Shown in pieces: positions 9,524 to 63,464 of a DNA stretch of 64,000 nt; the stretch's first letter is position 1, and every line of letters begins with the position of its first letter. The stretch covers positions 496,001-560,000 of the forward strand of contig NZ_FUYN01000001.1 of NCBI RefSeq assembly GCF_900168025.1, in the 5' to 3' direction. The translations under genes and the position numbers were made by a program. The notes beneath the pieces were generated by a model, which did not search any database, was not told where the DNA came from, and saw only the letters and a list, made by a program, of their open reading frames with translations. Origin of the DNA: Acetoanaerobium noterae (lineage in GTDB: Bacteria > Bacillota > Clostridia > Peptostreptococcales > Filifactoraceae).

Positions 9524-10072
9524 TTATAATTTTTCTTTTCCCATTTCTTCAAAATTCATCAGTATAATTTCACTTTCTAAATACCTTGCAAAAGTATAGA
9601 TAGTATCAGAAAGTCTGTTTACAAATTTAATTAAATCTGGGCTAATCTCTTCTTCATGAGCTAAATCAAGAATTCTTCTCTCAGCTCTTCTACATACCGT
9701 TCTAGCTACATGTAAAGCAGCAGAAGCATGAGAAGTACCTGGAACTATAAAGGCATCTACTTTGTCTATTTTCTTTAAATATTCATCTATCCATCCCTCT
9801 AGGGAAGTTACATGTTCAAGAGTTATTCTGTTTTTAAAATTTTCTCCATTTGTAGTTGCAAGTTCTCCTGCTACAAAAAAAAGTTTCTTTTGAATTTTGA
9901 ATATCTTTTCACTTACATCCTTATCTTCAATAAAATTTCTAGCAAATCCCAGATGAGAGTTTAGCTCATCAATAGTACCATAGGATTCTACTCTAATAGA
10001 ATTTTTCTTTACTCTAGTACCGTCATATAGTGATGTTTCACCTTTATCTCCAGTTTTCGTATAAATTTTCAT
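9524..10072 (-). CDS. pduO: ATP:cob(I)alamin adenosyltransferase, PduO type
   Basis: It transfers the adenosyl group of ATP to cob(I)alamin to make coenzyme B12. The 182-residue chain begins KIYTKTGDKGETSLYDG, the ATP-binding loop of the PduO/MMAB family. It continues with the helix bundle signatures YGTIDELNSHLGFAR and VCRRAERRILDLA and ends NRLSDTIYTFARY. The start has AGGAGG 8 bases upstream. It is divergent from a CobD-like gene, with only about 110 bases between them, which suggests a shared B12 theme. I see no cobalamin riboswitch in that short gap. Confidence 0.94.
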   Translation of the reverse strand: MKIYTKTGDKGETSLYDGTRVKKNSIRVESYGTIDELNSHLGFARNFIEDKDVSEKIFKIQKKLFFVAGELATTNGENFKNRITLEHVTSLEGWIDEYLKKIDKVDAFIVPGTSHASAALHVARTVCRRAERRILDLAHEEEISPDLIKFVNRLSDTIYTFARYLESEIILMNFEEMGKEKL

Positions 10073-10182
10073 TTTCCAGCCTCCTAAGCTATATTATTTT
10101 TCCAAATATGAAGTATAATAAGATTTATATTATATATATCCAAAATATTCTTTTTAAAAATAAATTATTTGGAGGTTATATC

Positions 10183-11265: not shown

Positions 11266-11283
11266 ATTTAAGGAGACTTTAAA

Positions 11284-11946
11284 ATGCATGATTATTTTAA
11301 GCAAATAAAACACCATTTTAAGAACTTCGAGACAAATATAATAGACCATGACAGTGCATTAGAATCATCAGTTTTGATTCCACTTCTCAATATCGATGAT
11401 ACCGTATATGTACTTTTTCAGGTCAGATCAAAGAATATATCTGCTCAGCCGGGAGAAATCTCCTTTCCTGGAGGAAAAAAAGAACTCTCTGACATTAATT
11501 TTATGCAAACAGCTATAAGAGAAACCTGTGAAGAGCTAGGTATAGAAGCTGGGGACATAGAAATAATTGCAGAAATGAATACCTTTGTTGCTCCATTTAA
11601 TATAATAATTCATCCTTATCTTGGGATAATCAAGGATTTTTCGAAAATTAATATAAATGAAGATGAAGTCGACCACATTTTTTTAGTTCCATTATCTTAT
11701 TTTTTTGAAACAAAACCTGATATTTATAATTCTAAAGTGTCCATTATTCCAGATGAAGATTTTCCCTTTAATTTACTCACTAAGGGTGAAAACTATGATT
11801 TTAAAACTGGAAATTATAAAATATTTTTTTACAATTACAACGGTTACATAATCTGGGGTATAACAGCAAAAATTATGAATGATTTTATAAAGCAATGTAG
11901 CAGATTAGATTGTAGCTTAGATACAGCAGCTAAAGGAGGAATTTGA
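11284..11946 (+). CDS. Nudix hydrolase, probable CoA pyrophosphatase
   Basis: A 220-residue Nudix protein. The Nudix box (GX5EX7REUXEEXGU) is read as GGKKELSDINF followed by RETCEELGI. It is preceded by FQVRSKNISAQPGEISFPGG, the CoA-pyrophosphatase subfamily signature. Such enzymes cleave CoA to 4'-phosphopantetheine and 3',5'-ADP. AAGGAG precedes the start, 18 bases after the CobD-like gene, so the two are probably co-transcribed. Substrate assignment is by family only. Confidence 0.88.
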   Translation: MHDYFKQIKHHFKNFETNIIDHDSALESSVLIPLLNIDDTVYVLFQVRSKNISAQPGEISFPGGKKELSDINFMQTAIRETCEELGIEAGDIEIIAEMNTFVAPFNIIIHPYLGIIKDFSKININEDEVDHIFLVPLSYFFETKPDIYNSKVSIIPDEDFPFNLLTKGENYDFKTGNYKIFFYNYNGYIIWGITAKIMNDFIKQCSRLDCSLDTAAKGGI

Positions 11947-11948
11947 TA

Positions 11949-12869
11949 TTGGAAAAACGTAGCTATCTTCCAGAGATTGCAGCAACTTTAATGGCAACTA
12001 TTTTCGGTATGAGCTTTATGTTTTCAAAATTAGCACTTGCAAATCATACACCCATAGAGCTAATTGCTCATCGTTTTTTACTAGCCTTTCTTATTATGAG
12101 CATACTGGTACTTTTTAAGGTTATAAAAATCGACCTAAAGGGAAAAAATATGAAAAATTTATTTTTGTTAAGCTTTGCTCAGCCAATCTTGTATTTTATT
12201 TTTGAAAGCTATGGCATAAAGTATTCCGCATCCTCTCAGGCTGGGATTATGATTGCCCTTATTCCAGTGTGCGTAGCTATTCTAGGAACTATATTTCTGG
12301 GAGAAAAAAATACTAAGCAGGAAATTTTCTTCATACTTTTATCTGTAGCTGGTGTTGTATATATAGCTTACGGAAAACAGGTTGATGAAAGCTCAAGTCC
12401 TATAGGCATTATCTTACTTTTAGGAGCTGTAATTTCGTCTTCTGTTTATAGCATTATTTCAAGAAAAATCTCTGGGGAATTTACCTCATCAGAGAGAACA
12501 TATTCTATGATGCTATATGGAGCTTTAGTGTTTAATGCTATAAACCTAGCTACACACATAAATAACGGTAATCTAAATCAATATTTTACTCCATGGTCAG
12601 ATCCAGCATTTGTTACAGCTTTGCTATATCTCGGAATAGTATCTTCGATAATCGCTTTTTTCCTATCCAACTATAGCCTCACGTATCTAGAAGCATCAAA
12701 AGCATCAGTTTTTGCAAACTTAGCAACTGTTGTCTCTATAATAATGGGTACAGTTTTTCTAAAGGAAAGCTTCTCAATTAACCAAATAATTGGTTCACTC
12801 ATGATATTAGTAGGCGTATTCGGAACTCAGTACACTAATATAATGCAAACAAAAAACAGGACCGCGTAG
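11949..12869 (+). CDS. EamA/DMT-family transporter
   Basis: About 306 residues forming ten hydrophobic segments in two EamA repeats (about 10-140 and 150-295). The repeats carry FGMSFMFSKLAL at the start and LEASKASVFANLATVVSIIMGTVFLKE near the end. Family members export amino acids or other metabolites; the substrate is unknown. I place the start at TTG 11949, where GGAGGA is 8 bases upstream. An in-frame TTG at 11943 lies too close to that site. The coding end overlaps the terminator hairpin, so the last codons are part of its stem. Confidence 0.88.
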   Translation: MEKRSYLPEIAATLMATIFGMSFMFSKLALANHTPIELIAHRFLLAFLIMSILVLFKVIKIDLKGKNMKNLFLLSFAQPILYFIFESYGIKYSASSQAGIMIALIPVCVAILGTIFLGEKNTKQEIFFILLSVAGVVYIAYGKQVDESSSPIGIILLLGAVISSSVYSIISRKISGEFTSSERTYSMMLYGALVFNAINLATHINNGNLNQYFTPWSDPAFVTALLYLGIVSSIIAFFLSNYSLTYLEASKASVFANLATVVSIIMGTVFLKESFSINQIIGSLMILVGVFGTQYTNIMQTKNRTA

Positions 12870-31091: not shown

Positions 31092-34000
31092 ATGAAAAGC
31101 CTGCTAAATAAAATAAAGGGATTGATATATTCACAGGATGTCATTTCACTACTTGATTCTCATCATGAGATATTAAAAACCATAGCTCAATCTGAAGAAT
31201 ATAAGACAACTTTGATAGAAATGGAAAAAAATCTTGAGTTTTCATACTCAAAGCTAAAAAATCTCTTTACACCTTTGTTAAATTCGTACAATTATCCTGA
31301 ATCGTCAAATTTTGAAAAGGATTTGTATGAATACGTACTTGCCCTGTCATTTCCTGACAAATTTTCCTATGATAGTAAATTTCTTAATTTGTATAAATTT
31401 TTTATGTTAATTCTTAGAGAGCTTTACTCTCAAGAAAAAGATTTAGACGCAGAATCAAATCTTTCAAAATATAAAGTTGAGCTTTTAGATGAAGATGAGT
31501 TTTCTCATTACGAATCTTCTGCAGAATACTCAACATTTATCCAGTCATATTACAATCTATATATCTATGAAGCCATGAGGCTAGGATTGGAATTCAAAGG
31601 ATTTAATACAATTGACCATGTAATTATGATTCATCACTTAGCAACTTTTATAGGCAAGCAAATGACATCAAAGCATGTAGAAATAGATTTAGGGAAGGTT
31701 TCAGCTGCCTCAATGGGGCATGATATAGGCAAATTCGGTTGCATAGGCGACGAGGTCTCTAGAGTTCCTTATCTTCACTATTACTATACTGATAAATGGT
31801 TTAAGGATAATGCTATGCCTATGATAGGTCATATAGCTACTAATCATTCTGTTTGGGATATTGAGCTTGAAAATCTTCCTATAGAATCCTTAGTTCTTAT
31901 CTATTCCGATTTTAGAGTAAAAAATGATGCAAAGGGAAAAATGAATATTTTTTCTTTAGACGAATCCTTCGATGTAATTCTAGAAAAGCTAGATAATGTC
32001 GACGAACAAAAAACTATCAGATATAAAAGAGCCTATGGAAAGCTCAAAGACTTTGAGAACTATTTATTATCCTTAAATATAGATATCCTAGATGAATCAA
32101 AGCCTAAAATAAGTGCAAAGCCCAAGCCTTATGCTTTATTATTTGACCAGGAAATCACTGATAACCTCAAATTTTATTCAATATCTAAAAATATAACCAT
32201 AATGCATCTGCTTAGAAGTGAAGCTTCACTAACTCATTTGCTGGAATACGCAAGAACAGAGCGCAATCCTCTTAGACTCAGAGAGTATATAGACGTATTT
32301 AAGGAATACTCTACTCACCTTTCACAAAAGCAAAAACTACTTATGATGAAATTCTTGTTTGATATGACTGTCCATCATGAAGAAGATATTCGAATAGAAT
32401 CAGCCACCTTCCTAGGTAAGCTCATATCAAATTTTGATGAAGAATATAGAAAAGAGCTTCCTAAAAATGCCGTTATAGATAATCCAGAAACCAATGCTCT
32501 AGAATTATTTTCTCAGTATGCTACAAAAATGATAGAGCCCAATATAAAAACTATTCCTATTCACAAAAAATGGCTCGGGCTTTCTTTTGCTTACTTTATC
32601 AAAACAGTGTCCATATATATACCAGATGGCTTAAGAACTGACTTTGAAAATTCATGTGCAAAACTACTAACTAATCACGCAGGTGAAGAAAATCAAATCA
32701 AATATTTATTGCTTGCACTTATCAGCATAGAGTTAAGAAATGAAAATACTCTTAATGATGCTTTATTCTTAGCTCTACATTCTATAAAAAGTGAAAATGA
32801 AGACATCAAAGCCCTAGCCTTGCTCCTACTAATAGGCTACAGACATAAAATAACAAAAGACAGCGTGCTTTATTCCACAATAGAAGAAAGCCTTCAAAAC
32901 AATATAGGTAATCTTGACAATATTTCATTTAATTATCTTTCTCTAGAGCTTTCTAAAGCACTTGGCATAAGAGATTTAGAATATCTCTATGAGCAAGCTA
33001 TGCAAAGCACTAAAAGTAGACTTTCAGAAATATTTTTAAACAATCTCAAAAGTGCTACTTCGTTTATTCAAAAAATCGTACACATTGACATTTTGAAAAA
33101 AAATGCCCTCGAAAACATCAACTATATGGGCGCATATACAGCTATGCACTTTTGCAATATTTTAAAGGTCAGCGAAATAGAAATAGTAAGAACAAAAGCT
33201 GGGCATTCACTTATTGAGATTTTCCCTCACTTGAATATTGAGCAAAGAAACGATATAGCGATAGAGCTCATACGTTCACTTGAGATGCAAGATTATAAAT
33301 TTGCAAAGTTCATACCTCATTATCTAGGCGAAATCCTGCTTTACATCTCTCCTAAGGAGTTTGATGAGATATTAGATGATTTTGAAATGAATATTAAGAC
33401 ATCAGAATCAAACATAGTATTTCTTATCTTAAAAACCTTAGGAAGATATATCTCTTTATATAGTAGATATTACGAAAACTATCCTCAAGAAAGCAGGAAT
33501 TACAAAAGCCTGTTTCGTATAGTTGGAATCCTCATGTGTGCTTTAGTCCACTATGAAAAGAAAGTGAGAAGAGCAGCTTTAGAAGTGATTTCAAAGGATA
33601 TCTTCGATTGCCTTACTATAGATGAGGCCTTAAAAGCATCCATATTTAAAAAAATGGCTAAAAAAATGTTAACCCTGCTTCCTCCAAAAACAGACGATAT
33701 CGGTCAGCTCAGCATAGGTTCAAGCATGAATAGAATTTATAGATATATCTGCGAGTACGAGCTTGAAAATGGAGCTGTGGAGTATGAAAACAAAAAAAAC
33801 ATTGCATTCTTCCCTGGAACCTTTGATCCATTTACCTTAGGTCATAAAAGCATCGCAAAAACTATTAGAGATATGGGGCTCGAAGTCTACCTTTCTGTAG
33901 ATGAATTTTCGTGGTCAAAAAGAACTCAGCCTCACATGATAAGAAGAGAAATAGCCAGAATGGCTGTTGCTGATGAATTTGATATCTATCTTTATCCTAG

Positions 34001-35876
34001 TAGCATGCCTGTAAACATAGCTAATGACAAGGATGTAGACCACCTTGTAAATAATTTTCCTAATCGAGACGTACACATGGTCACTGGAAAGGATGTAATA
34101 TACAACGCTTCAGCCTATAGAGGAGATTATAAAATCAGAGAGCTTCCTCATATAGTTTTCGAAAGAGAAGACATGCAGCTTCCTAAAGATGCAAATGAAC
34201 AAGAGGATTTCAAGCAATATCTAAAGAAACCATATACCTATGTTCAGCTAGATGATGCATTTACTCATATTAGCTCAACTCTTATAAGAAGCTGTATAGA
34301 CCAAGATAAAGATATTTCAAACATGGTAGACCCTCTTTGTGAAAAGTATATCTACGACAAAGGTCTGTATAAAAAAGAACCTCTATTTAAGTCTGATGCT
34401 AAAGAAATAAATAGAAGAGTTGAAATCTACAAGCATCCGCCTAAAACTATAATAGCCAAGCTAGCTCAGAGCTTTGCAGATGTAGATTTGGATAAGCTTT
34501 TTGCTTTCATAGATGATGAAAACACAAGATGTATAGCGCTTCTAAACGATCATTCTAGTGAAGTACTAGGTTTTTCAGTATTCAAGTGGCTTCCATCAAC
34601 TAGCATATATTCAAGATTTGAAGATAAAACTGTATGTGACTTTATTAGAAATGTATATGTAGGTAGAATCGTGCACCTAGGCGGAATATTTGGAAATAAA
34701 GAAACAATGACTATACTATTTACAGAAACCCTGACATATTCACTAGGCAAGGACTACACCTTCATGATTTACTCAAATGAAACAATGTCTAGCGAAAATA
34801 AAGCTTTAGAAGAAATTATAACGCTTAGTGGCTTTACTCATATTCAGAGTCGAAAATCCATCTACTACGTCAATATGAGCAACCCGTGTACTTTAAACTT
34901 GGACCTTGAAAACTTTATTAAAGAGCCGTTTTTAAATAACGATAAAATACAGTCTACTATTGAAAGCACTAGAACAAATCTTCAGACTGCTATTGCAAAG
35001 CTCTATCCAGCAAATCTAATTATTCCTTTTGACAATAGGATGTTCAAGGAAAAATTAATTGCTAAAATTTGTGAGGAAAATCAAGTGCCACACACACCTA
35101 CTGTACCAAGAAAATTAGGTGAAAAAATCTGTGTACCTTTTGGACACATACTTTCAAAGCTAATTATTCCTAATACCGTGTCAAAATCGCTTCACACAGA
35201 AAAAATATTCAACAAAGATTTGAGTGGCTTTACTGTTAGAGCCTATCCATTTTATCTATCTCTAGATAAACAGGTAAAAACCATCAAATCTTTTGCTAAA
35301 GAAGTAATCCTTGTGGATGATATTTTGAACAAAGGATATAGAATCAACGCTCTAGATCCAATACTAAAAAGACAGAATGTCAAAGTGTCTAAAGTAATTG
35401 TAGGCATATTAACAGGCAAAGGCAAAGAGCTTATGGAAATCCAAGGCAGAGATGTGGACAGTGCGTATTTTATTCCAAAATTAAACGTATGGTTTAACGA
35501 GGGAATCCTCTATCCGTTTATTAGCGGAGATGGAATTGAGGATGCTAACTTAATAGGTTCAATGATTCCATCTATTAACCTCATACTTCCATACACCTCT
35601 CCACACTATATTAAAGATACAAATGCTCATGATTTATATAACTTCTCTATGACTTGCCTTGAAAATGCTTATGCCATATTAAAGAGCTTAGAAGAAGTCT
35701 ATGAAGAGCTGTTTGAGAGAAGACTCACAGTTTCTGCATTAAATGAGGTTTTGGTCTACCCTAGAGTAGTAGACTATGGCAACAACTTGGAGTATTCAAA
35801 AAATCAAACTCCGTCATCATATGTACTCGATGATATAGAAAGGCTTAAACGACTTAAAAAAATGATACTAAAGTAG
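31092..35876 (+). CDS. multidomain protein: HD hydrolase, helical repeats, NadD-like nucleotidyltransferase, GNAT-like and phosphoribosyltransferase domains
   Basis: A 1594-residue protein, large for this window. An HD domain (about 170-290) carries H176, the H210-D211 pair (MGHDIGK), H247, H252 and D273. Residues 340-890 form an alpha-solenoid of HEAT-like helices (DIRIESATFLGKLI, EIVRTKAGHSLIEI, KVRRAALEVI). A NadD-like nucleotidyltransferase domain (about 900-1090) has FPGTFDPFTLGHK with G917-H918 and the motif SSTLIR at 1061-1066. About 1115-1265 looks like a GNAT acetyltransferase. The C-terminal third (about 1330-1560) has a PRPP-type loop VILVDDILNKG (1405-1415). AAGGAGG precedes the ATG. 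Domain calls rest on motif reading. The combination suggests nucleotide-cofactor metabolism; the reaction is unknown. Confidence 0.75.
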   Translation: MKSLLNKIKGLIYSQDVISLLDSHHEILKTIAQSEEYKTTLIEMEKNLEFSYSKLKNLFTPLLNSYNYPESSNFEKDLYEYVLALSFPDKFSYDSKFLNLYKFFMLILRELYSQEKDLDAESNLSKYKVELLDEDEFSHYESSAEYSTFIQSYYNLYIYEAMRLGLEFKGFNTIDHVIMIHHLATFIGKQMTSKHVEIDLGKVSAASMGHDIGKFGCIGDEVSRVPYLHYYYTDKWFKDNAMPMIGHIATNHSVWDIELENLPIESLVLIYSDFRVKNDAKGKMNIFSLDESFDVILEKLDNVDEQKTIRYKRAYGKLKDFENYLLSLNIDILDESKPKISAKPKPYALLFDQEITDNLKFYSISKNITIMHLLRSEASLTHLLEYARTERNPLRLREYIDVFKEYSTHLSQKQKLLMMKFLFDMTVHHEEDIRIESATFLGKLISNFDEEYRKELPKNAVIDNPETNALELFSQYATKMIEPNIKTIPIHKKWLGLSFAYFIKTVSIYIPDGLRTDFENSCAKLLTNHAGEENQIKYLLLALISIELRNENTLNDALFLALHSIKSENEDIKALALLLLIGYRHKITKDSVLYSTIEESLQNNIGNLDNISFNYLSLELSKALGIRDLEYLYEQAMQSTKSRLSEIFLNNLKSATSFIQKIVHIDILKKNALENINYMGAYTAMHFCNILKVSEIEIVRTKAGHSLIEIFPHLNIEQRNDIAIELIRSLEMQDYKFAKFIPHYLGEILLYISPKEFDEILDDFEMNIKTSESNIVFLILKTLGRYISLYSRYYENYPQESRNYKSLFRIVGILMCALVHYEKKVRRAALEVISKDIFDCLTIDEALKASIFKKMAKKMLTLLPPKTDDIGQLSIGSSMNRIYRYICEYELENGAVEYENKKNIAFFPGTFDPFTLGHKSIAKTIRDMGLEVYLSVDEFSWSKRTQPHMIRREIARMAVADEFDIYLYPSSMPVNIANDKDVDHLVNNFPNRDVHMVTGKDVIYNASAYRGDYKIRELPHIVFEREDMQLPKDANEQEDFKQYLKKPYTYVQLDDAFTHISSTLIRSCIDQDKDISNMVDPLCEKYIYDKGLYKKEPLFKSDAKEINRRVEIYKHPPKTIIAKLAQSFADVDLDKLFAFIDDENTRCIALLNDHSSEVLGFSVFKWLPSTSIYSRFEDKTVCDFIRNVYVGRIVHLGGIFGNKETMTILFTETLTYSLGKDYTFMIYSNETMSSENKALEEIITLSGFTHIQSRKSIYYVNMSNPCTLNLDLENFIKEPFLNNDKIQSTIESTRTNLQTAIAKLYPANLIIPFDNRMFKEKLIAKICEENQVPHTPTVPRKLGEKICVPFGHILSKLIIPNTVSKSLHTEKIFNKDLSGFTVRAYPFYLSLDKQVKTIKSFAKEVILVDDILNKGYRINALDPILKRQNVKVSKVIVGILTGKGKELMEIQGRDVDSAYFIPKLNVWFNEGILYPFISGDGIEDANLIGSMIPSINLILPYTSPHYIKDTNAHDLYNFSMTCLENAYAILKSLEEVYEELFERRLTVSALNEVLVYPRVVDYGNNLEYSKNQTPSSYVLDDIERLKRLKKMILK

Positions 35877-52595: not shown

Positions 52596-55500
52596 TTATA
52601 GTTTCCCCCCCACCCCTTTGAACTTCTCCACAAAAGCAGCTATCTTTTGAAATACGCTCTGCTTTTTAGTGAGGTATTCAGGGTTAAGTGGACTCATTTT
52701 AGGTAAGATTTCATTAAGCTCTGTTCCATTTTGACTTGCATATTCTCTTTTTAATGAGCTTAATATATATCTTCTAGCAGCATCCTCATTGAGTTTTTCT
52801 GAGATTATCAATTCTTCTGCCTCACGCTGTTGCTCTGCCTGGGCAAATGTAAAAAATTCATCTATGATGCTAGCCTTATCCTTGATTTTGTCTAGGTCTG
52901 TTTGGTTTATAAAGTCAACTACTAGGCTTTCTTTTGCACGATTTCCCACACTAGAACGAATGAGTCTACGCACATCCTCAACTAAGGCTTCCTTATCCTT
53001 TGATTTCTTGTTATGCTCAAATATAAGCTCTAGAATATAATCCAAATTGATTTCTTGAGATTTAAGTAGGTCTACTTCAAATACAACGTCATCCCAATCA
53101 ATAGTAGATTTTTCTGGTTTCTCTCCAGCATTTTGGTTTCTTAGCCAGTCACGTATATCATTGTAGGTAGAACGGTAATCTTGTATGGTTCTTTCGCTTG
53201 GAACTTCTATTTCTTTCATAGCCTGTATTTCTTCATCGCTTAGATAATAAGTAACCTTGAATTGTTCTACTTGCTCTTCATCAGTAATATCTAGCTGCTG
53301 TATAGCTTTTAAAGCTGTGAATTCATCGTAGTTTTGCAGGATGTTTTCAACTCTTAGGTATTCCCCAAATAGCTTAGCAAAATCCTTTTTATCCTTTTCC
53401 GTAACTATATTATCTATATCTGGGAATCTCTCTTTTAATTCCTTTACTACATCTACATATCCTCTGCGAGCATCTCCAGTTGCCACATCTGTAAAGCCCT
53501 GCATATATTCCGTATAGCTTTTTTCTAGAACTACATTTTTAGTATTTTTATCTCCAAATAAAGTAATGGCATCTATAGTTGCTTTTTCTAAATCTCTAAA
53601 AGTAATGATATTGCCAAAGGTTTTGGTCGAATCATATATACGGTTGGTCCTAGAATATGCTTGGATAAGTCCATGATACCTAAGATTTTTGTCCACAAAT
53701 AAAGTATTTAGAGTAGGAGCATCAAATCCTGTCAGAAACATCCCTACAACAATTAGTAAATCAATTTCTTTTTCCTTTACTCTTTTAGCTAAATCTCTAT
53801 AGTAATTTTGAAACTCACTACTTTCTACGCTGTAGTTTGTCTTGAACATAGCATTATAATCCTTTATTGCTAAGCCTAGGAATTCCTTTGCACTAGAATC
53901 CATAGCAGAAGGCTCGAATGTCTCATCTAGTATCTCACCTATAGCGCTTTGCTCTTCATTTGCCGCAAATGAAAATATAGTAGCTATCCTAAGAGGTTTT
54001 TCACTGCCCTTTTGAAGATTACTTAGAGCTTCATAATATAGCTTTGCCGCATCTACGCTACTAACTGCAAACATAGCATTAAACCCTTTTCCATTTGCAG
54101 TCAATCTATGAGTTTTTGTCTTAAAATTATTAAGGATATACTGAGATATTTCCTTAATTCTCTCAGGATGAAGAAGAGCTTCTTTGTTTTCCTCAGCCGA
54201 TAGCTTCTTTTCATCTTGCTCAGTCTCTATATTTTTAAACTTTGGGCGCACATCATTGTAATCCACTTTGAATTTAAGTACCTTTTCATCCCTTATGGCA
54301 TCAGTGATTACATAAGAATGTAGCTCCCTGCCAAATACAGTTGCTGTAGTTTCAGAGCCTAGAGCATTTTCTGGAAATATAGGAGTACCTGTAAAGCCAA
54401 ATTGATAGAACTTTTTAAACTTCTTATTTATATTTTTTTGAGCTTCACCAAATTGTGAGCGGTGGGCTTCGTCAAAAATAAATACCACCTGCTTATCATA
54501 TATAGCTAGGTCTGTTTCACTTTTCATTAGATTGTTTAGCTTTTGAATAGTAGTAACTATAATCTTGTTATCATCTTTTTCTATGTTTCGCTTTAGCCCT
54601 ATTGTGTTTTCTGAGCCATTGACACTATCAGGAGAAAAACGCTGATATTCCTTCATAGTCTGATAGTCTAAATCCTTTCTATCTACCACAAAAAACACCT
54701 TGTCAATAAAGCTCAGCTCAGTTGCTAGCCTAGCCGCTTTAAAACTTGTAAGAGTCTTACCCGAGCCTGTAGTATGCCAAATATACCCACCACTTTCAGT
54801 AGTTCTCCACTTCTTTGCTTGATATGAGCTTTCTATCTTCCATAATATTCTCTCAGTAGCAGCTATCTGATATGGACGCATAATAAGGAGAATATCACTA
54901 GTATCAAACACTGAGTATTTGAGTAATACACTTAGCAGAGTATTTTTCTGAAAAAATGTAGCAGTAAAATCCTTTAGATCTTTGATAAGAGTATTATCTG
55001 ATTTTGCCCAATTCATAGTAAAATCAAAGCTGTTCTTATCACGCCTAGTAGTATTAGCAAAATATCTGCTATCAGTACCATTAGAAATCACAAAAATCTG
55101 CACATACTTATATAGAGAGTTCTCAGAGTTAAAGCTCTCTTTACTATATCTATGGACTTGATTAAAGGCTTCTCGTATAGCTACTCCTCTTTTTTTCAGC
55201 TCTACTTGTACTAGAGGTAGACCATTTACCAAGATAGTCACATCATATCTATTGGCATGAGAACCTTTTTGCTCAAACTGAGAAATGACCTGCACTTTAT
55301 TTCTTGCAATATTCTTTTTATCTACTAGATAGATGTTTTGAATATGCCCATCATCAAACACAAAATCAAATATATAGTCATTGTGAATCTTACGAGTCTT
55401 GTCAATATGATTATCACTAGGCTTGTCTAAATACTGCTCACAAAATCTAACCCACTCAGCATCTGTAAACTTAACTTTATTAAGCTCCTCTAGCTGAATC

Positions 55501-55694
55501 CGAATATTAACTAGAATTTTCTCGGTATTATTTAGCCCCTGTACATATTCATAGCCTTGATTTTCTAAATCAGTGATAAATTCCCTCTCTAAATTGTATT
55601 CGCTCTGATATGCTTCATTTACCTGTGGACACTTAGTGTATTTATCTAGAACTATGAATTTCTTTGATTCTGCAATAGTTTTATAATCTGCCAT
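52596..55694 (-). CDS. hsdR: type I restriction enzyme, R subunit
   Basis: A 1032-residue subunit that translocates and cuts DNA. The N-terminal nuclease domain (1-200) ends with [20 protein letters not shown], carrying the D...ExK active site. The helicase motifs are HTTGSGKT (Walker A near 308), [10 protein letters not shown] (near 409) and FTGTPIF, with a C-terminal helicase domain (motif VI region [10 protein letters not shown]). It resembles EcoR124I-type (type IC) enzymes. The ATG is 2 bases after the hsdS stop, with AGGAGG upstream. The order is hsdM-hsdS-hsdR on the minus strand. Confidence 0.95.
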
Positions 55695-55696
55695 GA

Positions 55697-56878
55697 CTAG
55701 ACCTCCTGTTTTGGAAAGCTAAGAAGCATATTTCTATAGTACTCGTATTGCTTTTGACGAAGCTCTATCTCACGAGGTAGACCCTCAGTGATAGATGATG
55801 TTAAGGCATCGAATTTATCTAAGATGGATACTATTCTTTCTTGTTCCAGTAAAGGTGGGATTGGAATGATAAGCTTCTCAACTACCATTTTTGACAATCT
55901 TGGAACGCTTGCTCTACGAACTTGACTAGAAATTTTAGTTTTCTGGGTTAATAAAAAGTAATAAAGATATTTGCTTTTAATTTTATTATTATGCAAGAAA
56001 AAATAAACATCATCTGCAGCCCAAAAATCAACATTGCTGTAACCAATTTCACCAGCTGCACCTGCACTAATAATAAAAGTTGTATTAGCTTTAACATTGC
56101 TTTTATGATAGTATCCAAGAGGAACCATAGAATTTTGGAAAACAGCATATTTTCCTAATGTTTCTAACTCACTTTTAACAAGCCTTTTTCCTCGTTGAAT
56201 TTCTACCACACTTCCCAAGGTTTTCCACTCAACTTCTCCTTCTTCAAAACTAAGTAGCTTATCACGGTAATAAGTATATTGCTTTTTACGCGTTGTAAGC
56301 TCTGTTGTAAGCTCTGTTGTAAGCTCTGTAAAGGTGTCTAAAATGCGGACTATTTCCTCTTGTACTTTTAGAGGGGGGATAGGGATTAAAATCTTTTTAA
56401 ATCTTGCTTTAGATATATTAAATCTAGTGACTCCACTAGCTGTTTTTGCAATTTCAACACGCATAAAATGACTGCGAAATAAGTACTTTGAAAACTCTGG
56501 TGTTATATTAATATCATCATTAAATCTAACTCCAAAAGAAAAACTATTTAAATATATTTTGTTCGTAAATTTTGTTGTAACAGCTGAAGACATTCCAGCT
56601 TCTTCTGCAGTTTCTGATGAACCTGTAAATAAAATATCGCCATACTTTACTTCATGCTGATTTTCTGAATCTGATACTTTAACAGATTCAAGTTTATCAA
56701 AATTTATTTCTATATTATCAAATATATTTTTATATGAAATATATAAAGCATTTCCATCTGCAAAATCGTTTTTACTTTTTCCAGAAAGTCCTCCATAAAT
56801 TTCTGCAACCTCTCCCAATGTCTTCCACTCAACTTCAACCCCATCAAGCAACTTTTCCATAAAATTTGACTGTATCAT
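55697..56878 (-). CDS. hsdS: type I restriction enzyme, specificity (S) subunit
   Basis: A 393-residue DNA-recognition subunit with two target-recognition domains (about 15-165 and 215-365), each opening with VEWKTLG. The TRDs end with [17 protein letters not shown] and [17 protein letters not shown], the conserved helices that hold them together. Between them lies a run of three TELT repeats (positions 56292-56327), like the TAEL repeats of EcoR124I. The gene overlaps hsdM by 4 bases and is followed by hsdR. The recognised sequence cannot be predicted. Confidence 0.93.
56292..56327 (-). repeat. three tandem 12-bp units in hsdS encoding TELT repeats
   Basis: On the plus strand the unit GTTGTAAGCTCT occurs three times in a row, in frame, encoding T-E-L-T three times on the minus strand. 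It sits at the spacer between the two recognition domains. In EcoR124I and EcoR124II two versus three 12-bp repeats change the spacing in the target site. Confidence 0.9.
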
Positions 56879-58422
56879 CCCTCTATCACCTCGATTATTT
56901 CATCAATCTCAGTTCTTAGCTTGTCTATTTTTGCTACAGTAGTCTTTATTTCCTTGTTTAGCTCATTTATATCTATTATTTCTCTTGTGTCTTTTGCCTC
57001 TACATATGAGCTTACTGATAGGTTGTAGTCATTATCTACTATAGCTTCATAATCTATGCATTTTGCAACATGAGGGATATCTTCTTTAGTGTCAAATATC
57101 TTCATTATTTCTTCTATATGTTTTTCTGTTAGAACATTGTTATTGGTTTCTTTTTTGTAGAAATCTGCTCCACTTGCATCTATAAATTGGGTTTTGTTAT
57201 CTGTTTTATGTTTTGATAGGACTAGGATATTGACAGCTATAGAAGTTCCAAAGAAAAGATTTGGAGCTAGTGATATTACTGTCTCTACAAAGTTGTTGTC
57301 TATTAAATATTTTCTGATTTTTTGCTCTGCTCCACCACGATAGAATATACCAGGGAAGCATACTATAGCGGCTCTACCTTTACTTGATAGGTAGCTCAGT
57401 GAATGAAGTACAAAGGCAAAGTCTGCTTTTGACTTTGGAGCTAGAACTCCTGCAGGTGCAAATCTATCATCATTTATAAGGGTAGGGTCATCACTTCCTA
57501 TCCAAGTTACAGAATATGGAGGGTTAGATACTATTGCATCAAAAGGTTTTTCATCTCCATAATGAGGGTCTAATAAAGTGTTTCCAAGTGCTATATGAAA
57601 TTTATCGTAGTTTATGTTATGTAGGAACATATTCATACGAGCAAGGTTATATGTTGTATGATTTATTTCTTGACCGTAAAATCCATCTTCTATTATATGC
57701 TCATCAAATTGCTTCTTTGCTTGAAGTAATAGCGAGCCAGACCCAGCCGCTGGATCATAGATTTTGTTGATTGAGGCTTGACCATGAATTGCTAATTTGG
57801 CGATAAGGTTAGATACGCTCTGAGGCGTAAAGAATTCTCCTCCTGATTTCCCAGCGTTGGCGGCGTAGTTTGATATTAAGAATTCATAGGCATCCCCGAA
57901 AAGGTCTATGTGGTTATCCTCGAATTCACCAAATTTAAGCCCTGAAACTCCCTTTATAACTGCGGCTAGGCGAGAATTTTTATCTTTTACTGTATTTCCT
58001 AGTCTATTGCTAGTAGTGTCAAAATCTGCAAATAGTCCTTTGATATCTAGCTCAGATGGATATCCATTAGCCGAGCTTTCAATAGCTGAAAATATAGATG
58101 CTAGGTCTGTGTTTAGGCTTTCATTTGTGTTGGCAGTTTTTGCAATATTTTCAAATAGCTGGCTAGGATATATAAAGTAGCCTTTTGTTTTGATTGCATC
58201 GTCTTTGATTTCGCTAGTTATGATATCATCAGGAAGCTCTGCGTAGTTTATACTTTCATCTCCTGCTTCTATGTATTTAGAAAAGTTTTCACTTATAAAT
58301 CTATAAAATAATGTTCCTAGGACATATTGTTTGAAATCCCATCCATCTACAGAACCTCTTACATCATTTGCTATTTTCCATATTTGTGATTGTAATTCAG
58401 CTCTTTGCGCTGCACTTGTCAT
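56875..58422 (-). CDS. hsdM: type I restriction enzyme, M subunit (N6-adenine methyltransferase)
   Basis: A 515-residue DNA methyltransferase. An N-terminal helical domain ([17 protein letters not shown]) is followed by the SAM-binding motif [13 protein letters not shown] near 225 and the catalytic NPPY motif near 302 ([12 protein letters not shown]). It methylates adenine in the target set by HsdS and forms the M2S complex. GGAGG lies upstream of the ATG. It is first in the operon, divergent from the PucR gene, so the promoter lies in 58423-58686. Confidence 0.96.
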
Positions 58423-58686: not shown

Positions 58687-59862
58687 ATGATTACAGTATC
58701 CGATGTTATAAAAAATAGTAGTCTAAGTGCTTTCCCTGTGGTATGTGGTTGTGCTGGGTTAGAAAGCGAAGTTATAAAAACAGGTATAATAGATTATGAA
58801 TTTTCAATTGAAGGTTTTTTTGAAAATAATAAGCCGTTTGGTTATGGTGATTTTTTAGTTGCAAGCCTTATGTTTACTAATGGGGATGAATCTGAACTTT
58901 TGAAAATGGTCGAACAGCTTATAGCCCTTAAAGTTAGTGGTTTAGCCATTAAAAATATTTTCTTTAAAAAAATACCTCAAAGCATCATTGACCTTTGTAA
59001 CAATAAAGATTTTCCTATTGTTTTGTTTGACAATTCATTATATTTTGAAGAAATCATCACTGAAATTGATAATATAATTCAAGTATCAGATTGGATAAAA
59101 AGAATTGAAACAAAAATAGAATTATTGTATTTAAACGATTTAGAACGTGGTGAAGTTGGATTTATTTCTAAAGAGATGAGAATCTCTCCTTTAAAATATT
59201 CGGTTGCATTTTGTCTAAGTCCATATATTCCTTTATCATCTATAGATATGACCTATATAATAAATAGCTACAATAATCATTCATACCGTGATGAAAAAAG
59301 CTTTCTATATAAGTATCGCGAGTTTTTTTTAATAATATTAATATCTAATAGGGATTTAAAATCAGAATTCGAAAAATCTTTTTTAGATATTCTTAATTTA
59401 ACTGGTATTAAAATCTCGAATTACACAGTGGGAACTAGTTCAATACACAATCCTGTAATTAATCTGGATTTCTGTATTAAAGAAGCTATATGGAGTAATA
59501 AAGTTGCTAAATTATTATCTGAAGAAAGAAAAAATTATTCTGATTTAGGAACTTGGAGCATTATAATATCAAATCAGCAATCCAAGCATATAAACCAATA
59601 TATGAAAAATTACCTCAATCCGATTACACATAATCCATCTGATTCTTCTAAGGAACTAATAAAAACTGCTATTGCTTATATTAAATGTGAGGGAAATCCA
59701 AAATTGACTGCAGACAATCTTTTTATTCATGAAAATACGGTTAGATATCGAATGAATAAACTCCGCGAAAAACTAGACCCCAATGCTAATGATTTTGTTT
59801 TTTATGAGAATTTATCTTTAGCAATTAAAATTCATTTATTACACGACGATTTTAACTCTTAA
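58687..59862 (+). CDS. PucR-family transcriptional regulator
   Basis: A 391-residue regulator. The N-terminal PucR domain (about 1-120) begins MITVSDVIKNSSLSAFPVVCG and contains FGYGDFLVASLMFTNGDE. The C-terminal PucR helix-turn-helix is at about 335-385 (NPKLTADNLFIHENTVRYRMNKLREKLD). Bacillus PucR controls purine catabolism; others control amino-acid or sugar genes. A strong terminator follows it, so the next three genes are a separate unit and probably its targets. GAGG precedes the ATG. Confidence 0.9.
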   Translation: MITVSDVIKNSSLSAFPVVCGCAGLESEVIKTGIIDYEFSIEGFFENNKPFGYGDFLVASLMFTNGDESELLKMVEQLIALKVSGLAIKNIFFKKIPQSIIDLCNNKDFPIVLFDNSLYFEEIITEIDNIIQVSDWIKRIETKIELLYLNDLERGEVGFISKEMRISPLKYSVAFCLSPYIPLSSIDMTYIINSYNNHSYRDEKSFLYKYREFFLIILISNRDLKSEFEKSFLDILNLTGIKISNYTVGTSSIHNPVINLDFCIKEAIWSNKVAKLLSEERKNYSDLGTWSIIISNQQSKHINQYMKNYLNPITHNPSDSSKELIKTAIAYIKCEGNPKLTADNLFIHENTVRYRMNKLREKLDPNANDFVFYENLSLAIKIHLLHDDFNS

Positions 59863-59866
59863 CCTT

Positions 59867-59910
59867 AGCCATTACTTTTGTGAACAAATACAAAAGTAAT
59901 GGCTTTTTTT
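59867..59910 (+). terminator. strong intrinsic terminator after the PucR gene
   Basis: A 15-bp perfect stem (AGCCATTACTTTTGT with ACAAAAGTAATGGCT) around an 8-base loop is followed by seven Ts. It lies 5 bases after the PucR stop. Confidence 0.93.
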
Positions 59911-59977
59911 ATTATTCAAAACAAAGATACATTTTTTAAATTACCTTATTATTAAATAAAAAGGAGGTTTAAACAAA

Positions 59978-60970
59978 ATGCATAAAATATTTGTTTTATC
60001 AGAAGATGATACAAGGCAGTTGCTAGAATTAGAAGAAGTTATAGAAGGTATAGAAAATGTTTACAAAGAGAAATCCAGCGGAAGCGGAAAGGTTTTTCCT
60101 CTAGTATTTCATGAATTTGAAAAAGGTGTTGCTGATATGGATATTAAATCTGGCACACTTGATAAAATGGGAGTTTACGGATTAAAACTTGTTTCATGGT
60201 TTGGTAATAATCCTTCTAAAGGATTGCCATCGCTTTCTGGAATTGTTATGCTTTTCGATTCAAGTACAGGACTGCCTATTGGGACAATAAGTGCAGAACA
60301 TATGACTGGAATGAGAACAGGAGCCGCAGGAGCTATTGGAGCAAAATATCTAGCTAGAAATAATTCAGAAGTAATGTTAATGGTAGGTTCAGGTCATCAA
60401 GCTTCTTATCAGATAAGAGCAATGCAAACAGTAATTAAAGGATTAAAAAAAGTTTTTGTATATGACCCTATTAACTTCGAATCTGCTAAAGGATTTATAT
60501 CTAAGTTTGAATATAAGTTAGATAGTATAGAATATATCCCTGTACAAGATTTAGAAACCTCTGTAGCAAATTCTGACATTATAGTTACTGCAACCCCATC
60601 TAAAAAACCTTTGATTATGAAAGAGTGGGTAAAAGCTGGCACTCATTTTAGCTGTATGGGTTCAGACATGTCTGGGAAACAGGAAATCGATGAAAATATA
60701 CTTAAATCTGCAAAACTTTTTACAGATGATATTTTGCAATCTGTAAGTGTGGGAGAGTTTGAGGTTGGAATCAATAATGGCACAATAACTAAAGAAGATA
60801 TAATTTGTGAAATCGGTGATGTATTAAATGGAGAATATGATGGAAGAACATCTGATAATGACATCACTGTATTCGATTCTACAGGTATTGGTCTTCAAGA
60901 CATAGCTGCAGGATACATCGCGATTCAAAAAGCAAAAAAAATCAATATCGGTACTGAAGTTAAATTCTAA
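59978..60970 (+). CDS. ornithine cyclodeaminase / alanine dehydrogenase family protein
   Basis: A 330-residue NAD(P)-dependent enzyme. K70, R113 and D230 line up with K69, R112 and D228 of Pseudomonas ornithine cyclodeaminase, and the Rossmann loop is VGSGHQAS near 136-143. Family members include ornithine cyclodeaminase, archaeal-type alanine dehydrogenase and pyrroline-2-carboxylate reductase; the reaction here cannot be told. AAGGAGG precedes the ATG. It is the first gene of a three-gene unit with an aminotransferase and an EamA transporter. Confidence 0.88.
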   Translation: MHKIFVLSEDDTRQLLELEEVIEGIENVYKEKSSGSGKVFPLVFHEFEKGVADMDIKSGTLDKMGVYGLKLVSWFGNNPSKGLPSLSGIVMLFDSSTGLPIGTISAEHMTGMRTGAAGAIGAKYLARNNSEVMLMVGSGHQASYQIRAMQTVIKGLKKVFVYDPINFESAKGFISKFEYKLDSIEYIPVQDLETSVANSDIIVTATPSKKPLIMKEWVKAGTHFSCMGSDMSGKQEIDENILKSAKLFTDDILQSVSVGEFEVGINNGTITKEDIICEIGDVLNGEYDGRTSDNDITVFDSTGIGLQDIAAGYIAIQKAKKINIGTEVKF

Positions 60971-60997
60971 ATTACAATAAAGCACGGGAGGTCAACC

Positions 60998-62119
60998 ATG
61001 AATATAAAAGATTTTGGAGTAGAAATGTGGATGGCAAAGTATGAAAATAACGCTTTATACAATATTGCTGAAACTTGTGTTTCTTCAATCACTATAAATG
61101 AATTGCTTGAGATGTCAGATATAAAAGATAGTGCTTTTGATAATATTAGAAAAATGAAGATGACATATGGCGACATAGAAGGTTCCCTAGACCTTAGAAG
61201 AGAGATTTGTAAGTTATATCAAAATATCGATATAGCTAATGTCACAGTTACACACGGAACAATAGGAGCAAATGCTCTTGTTTATGATGTTCTTATAGAA
61301 CCTAACGACCATACTATATCTGTTTTACCAACCTACCAACAGCACTATTCTATTCCAGAGTCTCTAGGAGCCAATGTAGATATATTACCATTACGATGGG
61401 AAAATAATTTTATTCCTGATATTGATGAACTAAAATCGCTAATTAAACCTAACACAAAAATTATTAGCATTAATAATCCTAATAATCCTACTGGTTCTGT
61501 CATAGGTCTTGATTTGCTAAATCAAATAGTAGATGTAGCAAGAAGCGTTGATGCCTATGTTCTGTGTGATGAGGTATATCGTGGTCTTGATCATGTAGAA
61601 GGCTTTACTCCATCAATCGTAGATTTATATGAAAAAGGTATAAGCACCGCAAGTCTTTCAAAAACATTTTCTCTTGCAGGGCTTAGAATTGGATGGGTAG
61701 TAGGTTCTAAACAATTTATTGAAATGGCCAACAAAAGAAGAGACTATAATATTATTAGCTGTGGTATGATAGACGATTATCTTGCGACTATTGCCTTAAA
61801 AAGCAAAGATAAGATTCTAGCAAGAAGTCTTTCCATAGTAAGAAAAAATATAGAAATACTAGATAAATGGGTTAACGAGTCAAAACACTTAAAATATATT
61901 CGCCCTAAAGGTGGTACAACAGCATTTTTAAAGTATTCCATGGATATAAGTTCAGAAGAGCTATGCAAAGATATACTAGATAAAACAGGCGTAATGCTTG
62001 TTCCTGGTAAAGTTCTAGATATGGAAGGTTATATAAGAATTGGCTATGCAAATAGTGAAGATATTCTTAAAAAGGGATTGTCAAAATTGACAGAATACTT
62101 GGAAACTTATTGGGGATAA
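60998..62119 (+). CDS. class I/II aminotransferase
   Basis: A 373-residue fold-type I PLP enzyme. It has NNPNNPTGS at 159-167, D191 in CDEVYRG, the PLP lysine K222 in SLSKTFSLAGLRIGW, and R230. The overall sequence is closest to aspartate-aminotransferase-like members and also resembles the capreomycidine-synthase-like group. The substrate is unknown. GGGAGG precedes the ATG. It lies 27 bases after the cyclodeaminase-family gene and before the transporter gene, so amino-acid handling is likely. Confidence 0.88.
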   Translation: MNIKDFGVEMWMAKYENNALYNIAETCVSSITINELLEMSDIKDSAFDNIRKMKMTYGDIEGSLDLRREICKLYQNIDIANVTVTHGTIGANALVYDVLIEPNDHTISVLPTYQQHYSIPESLGANVDILPLRWENNFIPDIDELKSLIKPNTKIISINNPNNPTGSVIGLDLLNQIVDVARSVDAYVLCDEVYRGLDHVEGFTPSIVDLYEKGISTASLSKTFSLAGLRIGWVVGSKQFIEMANKRRDYNIISCGMIDDYLATIALKSKDKILARSLSIVRKNIEILDKWVNESKHLKYIRPKGGTTAFLKYSMDISSEELCKDILDKTGVMLVPGKVLDMEGYIRIGYANSEDILKKGLSKLTEYLETYWG

Positions 62120-62144
62120 ATATTTTTTTAAGGAGAATTGAGTA

Positions 62145-63005
62145 ATGATTTCAAAAAAGAATGCTTCACTAATCGGATTAGTTCTAGTTGCTATTATTTG
62201 GGGTTCAACTTTTACTTTTAATAAAATGGCTCTTTATGGACTAACTCCTATAAGCCTCATGGCAACAAGATTTATGATTGCCTTTATTCTAATGATTACT
62301 ATTTTTAGAAAAAAATTTAAGAACATTAAATTTAAAAATTGTATAGGTGGTTTTTTATGTGGGCTTGCTTTATTTTTAGCTTTTATATTGCAAACTTATG
62401 GATTAATTTATACTACAGCTAGTAAGCAAGCTTTTTTAAGTGGAGCATATGTGATTGCCGTTCCATTTCTTACTTGGTTTGCATTTAAGAAAACGCCAAA
62501 TTTAAAAACCTATTTAGGTACTGCAATATGTTTTTATGGAATTTCTCTTCTTTCATTTAACAGTGATATGAGCATCAACATAGGTGATATATTAACTCTA
62601 ATTAGTAGTATTATGTTTGCTGCTCAAATAGTAATAGCTGGCTATTATATTGATAGAGAAGATGCAGCAGTAATGTCCACTGTACAGTTTGGAGTAATAG
62701 GGATTTTATCCACAATTTTTTTACTTATTATGAAAGATTTTAGTTTTATAACTATTATTACTGACATCACTTCACCAACTAGTCTATCGGTTTTTTATCT
62801 CGGGATAATCGGAACAGCTACTGCATATTATCTTCAAATCCTAAGCCAAAAATATACAAGTCCAACAGCTACATCGATTATTCTTAGCATGGAAGCCGTT
62901 TTTGGAACTATTATTGCTGTGTTAATTCTTGGCGATGTTATTACACTTAAAATGATTTTTGGTGCTATTGCTATTTTAATTGCTATTCTAATTAGCGAAC
63001 TATAA
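62145..63005 (+). CDS. EamA/DMT-family transporter
   Basis: A 286-residue membrane protein with ten hydrophobic segments in two EamA repeats. It begins SLIGLVLVAIIWGSTFTFNK, and TATSIILSMEAVFGTIIAVLILGD is typical of the second repeat. Likely an exporter of an amino acid or related metabolite made or removed by the two enzymes upstream. AAGGAG precedes the ATG. It is not close to the EamA protein at 11949 in detail, so they are separate paralogues. Confidence 0.9.
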   Translation: MISKKNASLIGLVLVAIIWGSTFTFNKMALYGLTPISLMATRFMIAFILMITIFRKKFKNIKFKNCIGGFLCGLALFLAFILQTYGLIYTTASKQAFLSGAYVIAVPFLTWFAFKKTPNLKTYLGTAICFYGISLLSFNSDMSINIGDILTLISSIMFAAQIVIAGYYIDREDAAVMSTVQFGVIGILSTIFLLIMKDFSFITIITDITSPTSLSVFYLGIIGTATAYYLQILSQKYTSPTATSIILSMEAVFGTIIAVLILGDVITLKMIFGAIAILIAILISEL

Positions 63006-63049
63006 ATTATTGTGTATAAAACTAGTCATCATAATGAAATAATCTATAA

Positions 63050-63078
63050 AATAAGCCCTGCCTTTGCAAGGCTTATTT
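63050..63078. terminator. bidirectional terminator
   Basis: AATAAGCC pairs with GGCTTATT around a 12-base loop that can add a small inner stem. It separates the convergent transporter and DUF302 genes, with short A and T runs on its flanks. Confidence 0.75.
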
Positions 63079-63464
63079 TACAGTGAAGCTTCTATTGAAT
63101 TTTGTAGAGCTTCTTCAACTTTTTTAGCAACTTCTTTTAAGTCACTACCTTCGAACAATCCAATAAGGGCCTCTGGGCTTGTCATTCCTATATAAGTTTT
63201 ATCGTCTTCTCTTCTAACTACCATCTTACATGGAAGAACATAACCTATATGAATGTTTTCCTCTAGAACTTCTTTTGCTTGCTTTGGATTACATACCTCT
63301 AATACTACAAAATCATCCTTGAACTCTAGACCTTTTTCTTGTAATTTATCTTTGAAATTAAGCTGCCATAGTATCCCAAAACCACTTTCCTTTAAATTAC
63401 TCTCTAAAGAACTGATTGCCTCAGTTAGACTTTTATTTGTACTTTTTTCATAAACTATGCCCAC
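63078..63464 (-). CDS. DUF302 family protein
   Basis: A 128-residue protein of the DUF302 fold. It has GFGILWQLNFKDKLQEKGL, VVLEVCNPKQAKEVLEE and GYVLPCKMVVRREDDKTYIGMTSPEALIGLF. The family is found in anaerobes and near metal or redox genes, but its function is unknown. I choose the GTG at 63464 because GGAGG lies 7 bases before it. An in-frame ATG at 63470 is only one base from that site, and a TTG at 63488 lies before it. Confidence 0.85.
   Translation of the reverse strand: MGIVYEKSTNKSLTEAISSLESNLKESGFGILWQLNFKDKLQEKGLEFKDDFVVLEVCNPKQAKEVLEENIHIGYVLPCKMVVRREDDKTYIGMTSPEALIGLFEGSDLKEVAKKVEEALQNSIEASL

Follow-up and report, generated by a model that had tools for sequence, protein, structure and literature searches.

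Several PucR-type transcriptional regulators control the use of amino acids. In one account, PutR is assigned to proline, AdeR to alanine and GabR to gamma-aminobutyrate (GABA), and the regulators of this type that are described as studied besides PucR itself are PutR, AdeR, CdaR and Srm22 (PMC7652997). According to the same account, the genes next to which GabR of C. glutamicum, AdeR and PutR act are for aminotransferases, dehydrogenases or proline use, and the sites are inverted repeats of 17-24 bp; GabR, which is without a GGDEF-like domain, activates a GABA-transaminase operon from such sites (PMC7652997). AdeR is reported to activate an alanine-dehydrogenase gene (PMC9894248). In arginine use, ArcT of Lactococcus lactis has been put forward as an L-arginine-pyruvate transaminase that acts together with ArcD2 (PMC5300872), and is elsewhere called a putative transaminase (PMC7818446). 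Here we describe a four-gene cluster at 58687-63005 of a 64,000-nucleotide stretch of Acetoanaerobium noterae DNA (the window; contig 1, 496001-560000, of a 2.8-Mb genome in 19 contigs), in which a PucR-family regulator gene precedes genes for an enzyme of the ornithine cyclodeaminase (OCD)/mu-crystallin superfamily, an ArcT-type aminotransferase and an EamA-family transporter.

We show that the OCD and aminotransferase genes form a recurrent module and that a palindrome tied to PucR lies about 100 bp upstream of the OCD gene, where it is probably the PucR operator. We propose, tentatively and at slightly under an even chance, that the cluster is a PucR-activated amino-acid catabolic module, in which the aminotransferase deaminates a probably basic amino acid and the OCD protein serves as an NAD(P)-dependent dehydrogenase of amino acids.

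The OCD-aminotransferase pair is a recurrent module

Four open reading frames (ORFs) on the forward strand were confirmed: a 391-amino-acid PucR-family regulator (58687-59862), the 330-amino-acid NAD(P)-dependent OCD/mu-crystallin-superfamily enzyme (59978-60970, with a ribosome-binding site, AAAGGAGG, at 59960-59967), the 373-amino-acid aminotransferase (60998-62119) and the 286-amino-acid EamA/DMT-family membrane transporter (62145-63005). The last three match the Pfam families OCD_Mu_crystall, Aminotran_1_2 and EamA with 232, 150 and 119 bits. Gaps of 115, 27 and 25 bp separate the four genes in order, in keeping with an earlier reading of the sequence alone, which saw three tightly spaced genes behind a regulator.

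That sequence-only reading had suggested a survey of gene neighbourhoods around close OCD homologues. We took 18 loci from genome contigs and searched sampled genomes at E <= 1e-85. The protein turned up in 42 of 297 genomes sampled from the order, 5 of 391 from the class and 1 of 398 from the phylum, and each of these counts includes the genome of the window. Forty regions were fetched: 38 of the 49 order-sample places, with the window's among them and the 11 of lowest score excluded, and a further two contigs. After seven same-contig loci had been set aside and L019 (partial) and L020 (broken OCD gene) dropped, 50 OCD genes were kept, whose neighbours were labelled by BLAST against eight reference families only. 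The loci are related and were chosen by OCD similarity, not by their neighbours, and the adjacency counts stand without a null model. An aminotransferase gene lies within five ORFs of the OCD gene in 42 of the 50 loci, and in 40 it is on the same strand with a gap below 150 bp. Within the same distance, PucR occurs in 33 loci, a threonine-dehydratase-like gene in 20, a second, PRK06348-type aminotransferase in seven and EamA in five, the window included. The pairing is thus more general than the single cluster had suggested.

The module is patchily distributed. Only one of ten other listed genomes of the same family has the OCD gene, and the single genome of the same genus is without it. The OCD protein of locus L022, from another family (on the same contig as Anaerosolibacter carboniphilus L003), is 81% identical to ours, against 69% in the same-family genome. 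This distribution suggests horizontal transfer.

Among the loci with other partners, an M20 amidohydrolase gene stands beside the OCD relative, in place of the aminotransferase, in L014 (179-2491), L046 and L048; the L014 protein scores 361 bits to amidohydrolases (cut-off 154) and 290 to DoeB2 (cut-off 550), and the other two were assigned by BLAST cluster. The OCD relatives of L040 and L045, also without an aminotransferase, are preceded by a protein family of 354-361 amino acids (cluster c50).

The pairing extends to other phyla. In a plasmid collection, 857 records matched the OCD protein at E <= 1e-20, and 103 matched the aminotransferase at E <= 1e-30. Fourteen regions were read from these matches and three more for OCD context. 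The aminotransferase is annotated in ten, three aminotransferase regions carry no annotation, and one region is a bhc cluster; the gene order of L070, L071, L074, L110 and L111, all unannotated, is left out. The two genes are adjacent on one strand in seven of the ten, from Priestia, Shinella HZN7, Pantoea, Collinsella, Sulfitobacter pontiacus, Rhizobium etli Mim1 and Agrobacterium. In Priestia a DMT transporter gene follows the pair, and in Collinsella a PucR gene is divergent from it. In Burkholderia the OCD gene is divergent and one gene away from the aminotransferase gene, and in L063 (Ruegeria) and L072 (Shinella WSC3-e) no annotated OCD gene lies beside it. The six proteobacterial partner OCDs, Burkholderia included, form a branch of their own (support 1.0), and PRK06141 is the best match of each of the five scanned (111-135 bits, cut-off 322). 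Substrate-binding proteins near three proteobacterial aminotransferases match Lys/Arg/Orn types best (TIGR01096; 212, 240 and 213 bits, cut-off 256), and the one near the Burkholderia aminotransferase scores 249 bits to ArgT (cut-off 440).

The OCD protein branches beside BhcD and shares a motif with archaeal alanine dehydrogenase

By sequence comparison, the OCD protein belongs to none of the named subfamilies and falls below every NCBIfam cut-off: archaeal alanine dehydrogenase (TIGR02371, 276.1 bits against 409), BhcD (NF045643, 243.5 against 500), PRK08291 (237 against 408), PRK06141 (191 against 322), the ornithine cyclodeaminase PRK07589 (135.8 against 350) and LhpI (77 against 400). Its best sequence matches in the PDB are 1vll/1omo (238 bits), 6rqa (170) and 6t3e (163). 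An AlphaFold2 model (pLDDT 93.1, pTM 0.90) superposes on 1omo, 6rqa and 6t3e with Z scores of 45.2, 44.6 and 44.2, and on 1x7d with 39.0; the first three are tied, so that structure comparison cannot choose among alanine dehydrogenase, BhcD and pyrroline-2-carboxylate reductase.

Retention of K70, R113 and D230, to which the sequence-only reading had pointed, holds across the family (50/50, 50/50 and 49/50 rows), as does the segment D55-I-K57-S-G59. Because K70 and R113 are present in every superfamily row that was aligned, only D230 is informative. Together with G233-K234-(Q/E)235-E236 it is common to the window OCD, the AF1665 alanine dehydrogenase, BhcD, and Sinorhizobium and Deinococcus rows; elsewhere the residue is V (6t3e), S (CRYM), F (7rbp), Y (the genome's own paralogue) or N (the proteobacterial partners). 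We take the Asp230 motif as a likely sign that an enzyme acts on a primary amine or imine, judging from the named enzymes that carry it. Position 42 is L in the window OCD and never Arg in the 50 rows, and is Arg in the 6t3e, CRYM, 7rbp and own-paralogue rows. In a FastTree phylogeny of 68 rows (rooted on CRYM; PDB rows partial), the family, Priestia and Collinsella included, is sister to BhcD plus the Deinococcus row (support 0.98), and AF1665 and the Sinorhizobium row fall just outside (0.76-0.78).

AF1665 (1omo/1vll) is the best PDB match, with 38% identity and a shared D230-GKQE, but differs in the loop with Arg52 as well as in its model score. The BhcD iminosuccinate reductase (6rqa) shares K57, GHQ, D230-GKQE and QSVSxGE, whereas it is only 34% identical and has G where the window OCD has D55. 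No BhcA, BhcB or BhcC gene adjoins the window OCD gene, whose neighbours are the other cluster genes, a DUF302 gene and, by eye, restriction-modification genes. Membership in the beta-hydroxyaspartate cycle was rejected on the sub-threshold BhcD score and the missing bhcABC neighbours.

In ornithine cyclodeaminase, Glu56 binds the side-chain amine; its equivalent here is D55 or K57 depending on the alignment. HMMER places AF1665 Arg52 at K57, MAFFT places both AF1665 Arg52 and OCD Glu56 at D55, and equal spacing to the conserved Lys would put Glu56 at K57; both residues lie in strand 52-61 of the model. Since the alignments disagree, K57 was dropped as proof against a basic substrate.

The aminotransferase belongs to NF005593, probably the family of ArcT

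The aminotransferase scores 530.1 bits to NF005593/PRK07324, above the cut-off of 476. Its nearest PDB matches are 3op7 (342 bits) and GntC (8fft, 190 bits). Across 50 rows the equivalents of GntC N158, D186, Y189, K219, R227 and R346 are all kept (50/50), and that of E9 in 49. At the GntC substrate positions, N52 is replaced by Y57 (50/50), T84 by I89 (38/50, with T in seven) and H250 by I253 (49/50). Tyr57 is, we assume, the counterpart of Tyr70 of aspartate aminotransferase. With the roles of the GntC residues as given in PMC10367076, this pattern fits an ordinary aminotransferase, not a cyclase; a GntC/VioD-type arginine cyclase was rejected because N52, T84 and H250 are not kept, even though E9 is.

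The only control genome with a protein above the NF005593 cut-off was that of Lactococcus lactis, and we infer that this match, for which the control gives no coordinates, is ArcT itself. In the Enterococcus-centred order, 23 of 148 genomes exceeded the cut-off and 24 matched at 1e-90; 20 of these 24 places were read, with one representative of each arginine gene family scanned. An ArcD-type antiporter gene lies within two ORFs of the aminotransferase in eight of the 20 (L093, L094, L098, L101, L103, L104, L105, L107), carbamate-kinase and ornithine-carbamoyltransferase genes lie within four in L095, L100 and L103, and one or the other is found near it in ten. If the L. lactis match is ArcT, the window enzyme shares with it a curated family as well as ordinary aminotransferase residues. 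The lactic-acid-bacterial rows are, however, 38-45% identical to it in 18 of the 20 loci (50 and 56% in L108 and L109), and no OCD label lies within six ORFs in any of them except L108, whereas the window aminotransferase is PucR-linked and OCD-paired; within the window, no arginine-gene (arc operon) neighbourhood surrounds it. L108 (7593-12212), although from the lactic-acid-bacterial order, carries PucR, OCD and aminotransferase genes with a PRK06348-like aminotransferase, which is the clostridial plan and not the arc-operon plan. Elsewhere among the relatives, L007 has an ArcD-like antiporter (437.6 bits to TIGR00905, over its cut-off of 409; 440 to TIGR03810, under 591), and the nearest relative, L022, an agmatinase-family gene upstream of PucR. 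Together, the pairing across phyla and the arginine links of the aminotransferase family support the earlier suggestion of a compact pathway that converts an amino acid.

A candidate PucR operator lies in the hairpin behind PucR

The regulator has a PucR domain at residues 6-127 (60.5 bits, gathering score 33.5) and an HTH_30 domain at 324-382 (55.4 bits, gathering score 27), and a Pfam scan found no GGDEF-like domain between them. Its placement beside such metabolic genes resembles that of GabR, AdeR and PutR, and the apparent lack of a GGDEF-like domain resembles GabR (PMC7652997). It gives only a weak partial match to the AdeR model (28.8 bits, cut-off 700), and its role as an activator is a putative one.

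Between PucR and OCD, at 59867-59904 on the forward strand, a terminator-like hairpin of 16 pairs is followed by six T. Its folding energy is -20.9 kcal/mol (z -6.5), and none of 200 shuffles was as stable. The strong terminator that the sequence-only reading had given to PucR is therefore there as a hairpin; that reading is possibly half the story, because a conserved palindrome sits in the same place. The hairpin top carries TTTGTGAACAAATACAAA (59877-59894, no strand), and by eye the three closest loci have TTGTGAAyAAAyACAA in common at this position of the PucR-OCD gap. The lower stem is altered on both sides in the two nearest relatives and still paired (by eye).

A search for TTGTR-N5/6-YACAA within 300 bp upstream of called ORF starts found it in 18 of 50 regions (shuffles: mean 0.155, maximum 2); all the loci read, 773,273 bases together, hold 39 occurrences. 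Some called starts proved too early (for example in L030 and L055), and the scan was repeated on the stretch from -200 to -51 with starts refined by alignment and L108 added. The exact palindrome was then present in 18 of 51 regions (shuffles: mean 0.175, maximum 1) and a form with at most one mismatch in 30 (mean 3.32, maximum 10). Where a PucR gene lies no more than five ORFs away, the exact form is present in 17 of 34 regions and the form with at most one mismatch in 27 of 34, against 1 and 3 of 17 without PucR (Fisher p 0.002 and 4e-5, values that are too small because the rows are related and some were used to find the pattern). The other 21 of the 51 rescanned regions have no palindrome at this tolerance, and seven of these have PucR nearby. 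Seven loci carry two copies about 30 bp apart, mostly when one-mismatch copies are counted. In Collinsella, outside the set from which the pattern was derived, an exact site lies at -204 and another, with one mismatch, at -87; Priestia, without an adjoining PucR, has none. The palindrome at 59877-59894 is thus common to Firmicutes and Collinsella loci. Its longer form, TTTGTRN6YACAAA, is found nowhere else in the genome, and a reversed control also occurs once, so that the count speaks for uniqueness and not enrichment. A promoter scan returned 32 sites against 27.3 expected, and no promoter is claimed. These patterns make the palindrome a probable PucR operator, and the hairpin may be operator and terminator at once.

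The sequence-only reading had also judged a purine role, the usual one for PucR, to be out of place. A purine role is indeed not needed here, but that view of the family was narrow: with regulators of alanine, proline and GABA use on record (PMC7652997), it was never required. In the annotated regions, where purine genes were not searched for systematically, purH lies two genes beyond PucR in Collinsella, and in L073 allantoin genes flank a bhc cluster with BhcD, not the window-type OCD.

Proposed mechanism and alternatives

In the catabolic module that we propose, the ArcT-type aminotransferase would transfer the alpha-amino group of its substrate, most probably a basic amino acid such as arginine or ornithine, to pyruvate or another 2-oxo acid. 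Like archaeal alanine dehydrogenase and BhcD, the OCD protein would work on a primary amine or imine, either as an NAD(P)-linked dehydrogenase of amino acids or as a reductase of imines; if it ran as an alanine dehydrogenase, pyruvate would be regenerated and ammonia set free, and the pair would then amount to a two-protein amino-acid dehydrogenase. The threonine/serine-dehydratase-like gene of 20 of the 50 relatives, absent here, might supply the 2-oxo acid acceptor. EamA may export the product, and PucR may sense the substrate and activate the operon from the palindrome. The arginine-deiminase-family and D-proline reductase genes of the genome speak for this proposal as well as for the first alternative below.

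Several observations weigh against this proposal. The function of ArcT is itself a proposal, and the archaeal alanine dehydrogenase score lies well below its cut-off. The pocket-strand alignment is ambiguous, so the substrate cannot be read from D55 and K57. The six proteobacterial partner OCDs belong to another subfamily with N at 230 and Y at 57, so the chemistry may differ between lineages. At 1e-85, 255 of the 297 order-sample genomes have no OCD match; within five ORFs of the OCD gene the arginase family appears in only 2 of 50 loci and an ArcD-like gene in one, and the aminotransferase is absent from eight (L014, L018, L040, L045, L046, L048, L056, L060). In L004/L024 a classical-family alanine-dehydrogenase-like gene (260 bits, cut-off 392) is divergent from the pair and would make an alanine dehydrogenase redundant there.

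Alternatively, the aminotransferase could turn ornithine or lysine into a 2-oxo acid that closes to pyrroline- or piperideine-2-carboxylate, which the OCD protein would reduce to proline or pipecolate. Transamination followed by cyclic-ketimine reduction is the plan of plant ALD1-SARD4, and in an organism with D-proline reductase the proline would feed Stickland fermentation. The genome encodes the D-proline reductase PrdA (1027 bits, cut-off 700) and an arginine-deiminase-family protein (457 bits), and so looks equipped for arginine use and Stickland fermentation; PRK06141, the best if weak match of the five scanned proteobacterial partner OCDs, models pyrroline-/piperideine-2-carboxylate reductases, and the reductase 6t3e is one of the three tied nearest structures. 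We nonetheless consider this route unlikely. D230-GKQE, kept in the window OCD, is absent from 6t3e, CRYM, 7rbp, the own paralogue and the proteobacterial partners, and the Arg42 of the first four never occurs in the 50 rows. The window protein stays below the PRK06141 and LhpI cut-offs, and the genome already has, elsewhere, a second OCD protein of PRK08618/6t3e type (277 bits to 6t3e).

A route from a hydroxy-amino acid, as in the beta-hydroxyaspartate cycle or hydroxyectoine use, would have a dehydratase make a 2-imino acid that the OCD protein reduces, with the aminotransferase passing the amino group on. The sister position to BhcD would suit it, as would the 20 loci with a dehydratase-like gene, which is the sole labelled partner in L056 and L060; a dehydratase-OCD pair is found in Deinococcus too. 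But neither the window cluster nor its two nearest relatives have such a gene, none of five scanned dehydratases passes the cut-off for BhcB, EutB or any other listed row, and the aminotransferase is present in 42 of 50 loci, all of which makes the route improbable. Least probable, to our minds, is that the enzyme is a true ornithine cyclodeaminase or that the cluster makes and exports a non-standard amino acid. The OCD fold (Z 39.0 to 1x7d) and the invariant D55, which in one of two alignments may sit at the Glu56 place of the P. putida enzyme, agree with a cyclodeaminase, whereas the PRK07589 score does not. Export, part of the sequence-only reading, draws on the EamA gene in the operon and the DMT transporter in Priestia and is weakened by the scarcity of EamA near the relatives. 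For the non-standard amino acid of the same reading we found no positive evidence: no peptide-synthetase or ligase gene was noticed by eye in the flanks, where no dedicated search was made.

Surroundings of the cluster

The EamA protein scores 52 bits to NCBIfam 2A78 (cut-off 230). Beyond its gene, a hairpin at 63044-63083 (no strand; -16.5 kcal/mol, z -5.3) lies before a convergent DUF302 gene and is likely a two-way terminator. Upstream of the cluster, genes taken by eye for a type I restriction-modification set run divergently (52596-58422); the HsdS-like specificity gene of this set (55697-56878, by eye) has its two halves separated by a short repeat. Elsewhere in the window, a forward-strand run at 10030-12869 of a second aminotransferase (HisC/CobD-like, by eye), a Nudix and an EamA-like gene is another aminotransferase-EamA combination, and a 1594-amino-acid ORF at 31092-35876 joins an HD-like part to a nucleotidyltransferase-like part (by eye), an unusual fusion.

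Discussion

The sequence-only reading of this cluster is, as a whole, partly supported. The parts are familiar; the arrangement and the apparent switch site seem undescribed, and a literature search, judged by titles and the openings of abstracts, gave no report of a PucR-ornithine cyclodeaminase pairing. A bolder version, doubtful though not far-fetched, is that the aminotransferase and OCD protein form a two-protein NAD(P)-linked basic-amino-acid dehydrogenase that was assembled at least twice around the same aminotransferase line, with a D230 BhcD-like OCD in Firmicutes and Collinsella and an N230 OCD in Proteobacteria, and that in Firmicutes it is run by PucR at the palindrome, here within a terminator hairpin.

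The role of ArcT in arginine operons has so far been proposed and is unproven. A second, OCD-linked line of the ArcT family, present in several phyla and in many cases linked to PucR with a candidate operator, would offer a clean system in which to test substrate, partner and inducer together. It also cautions against reading 'ornithine cyclodeaminase' or 'purine regulator' off family names.

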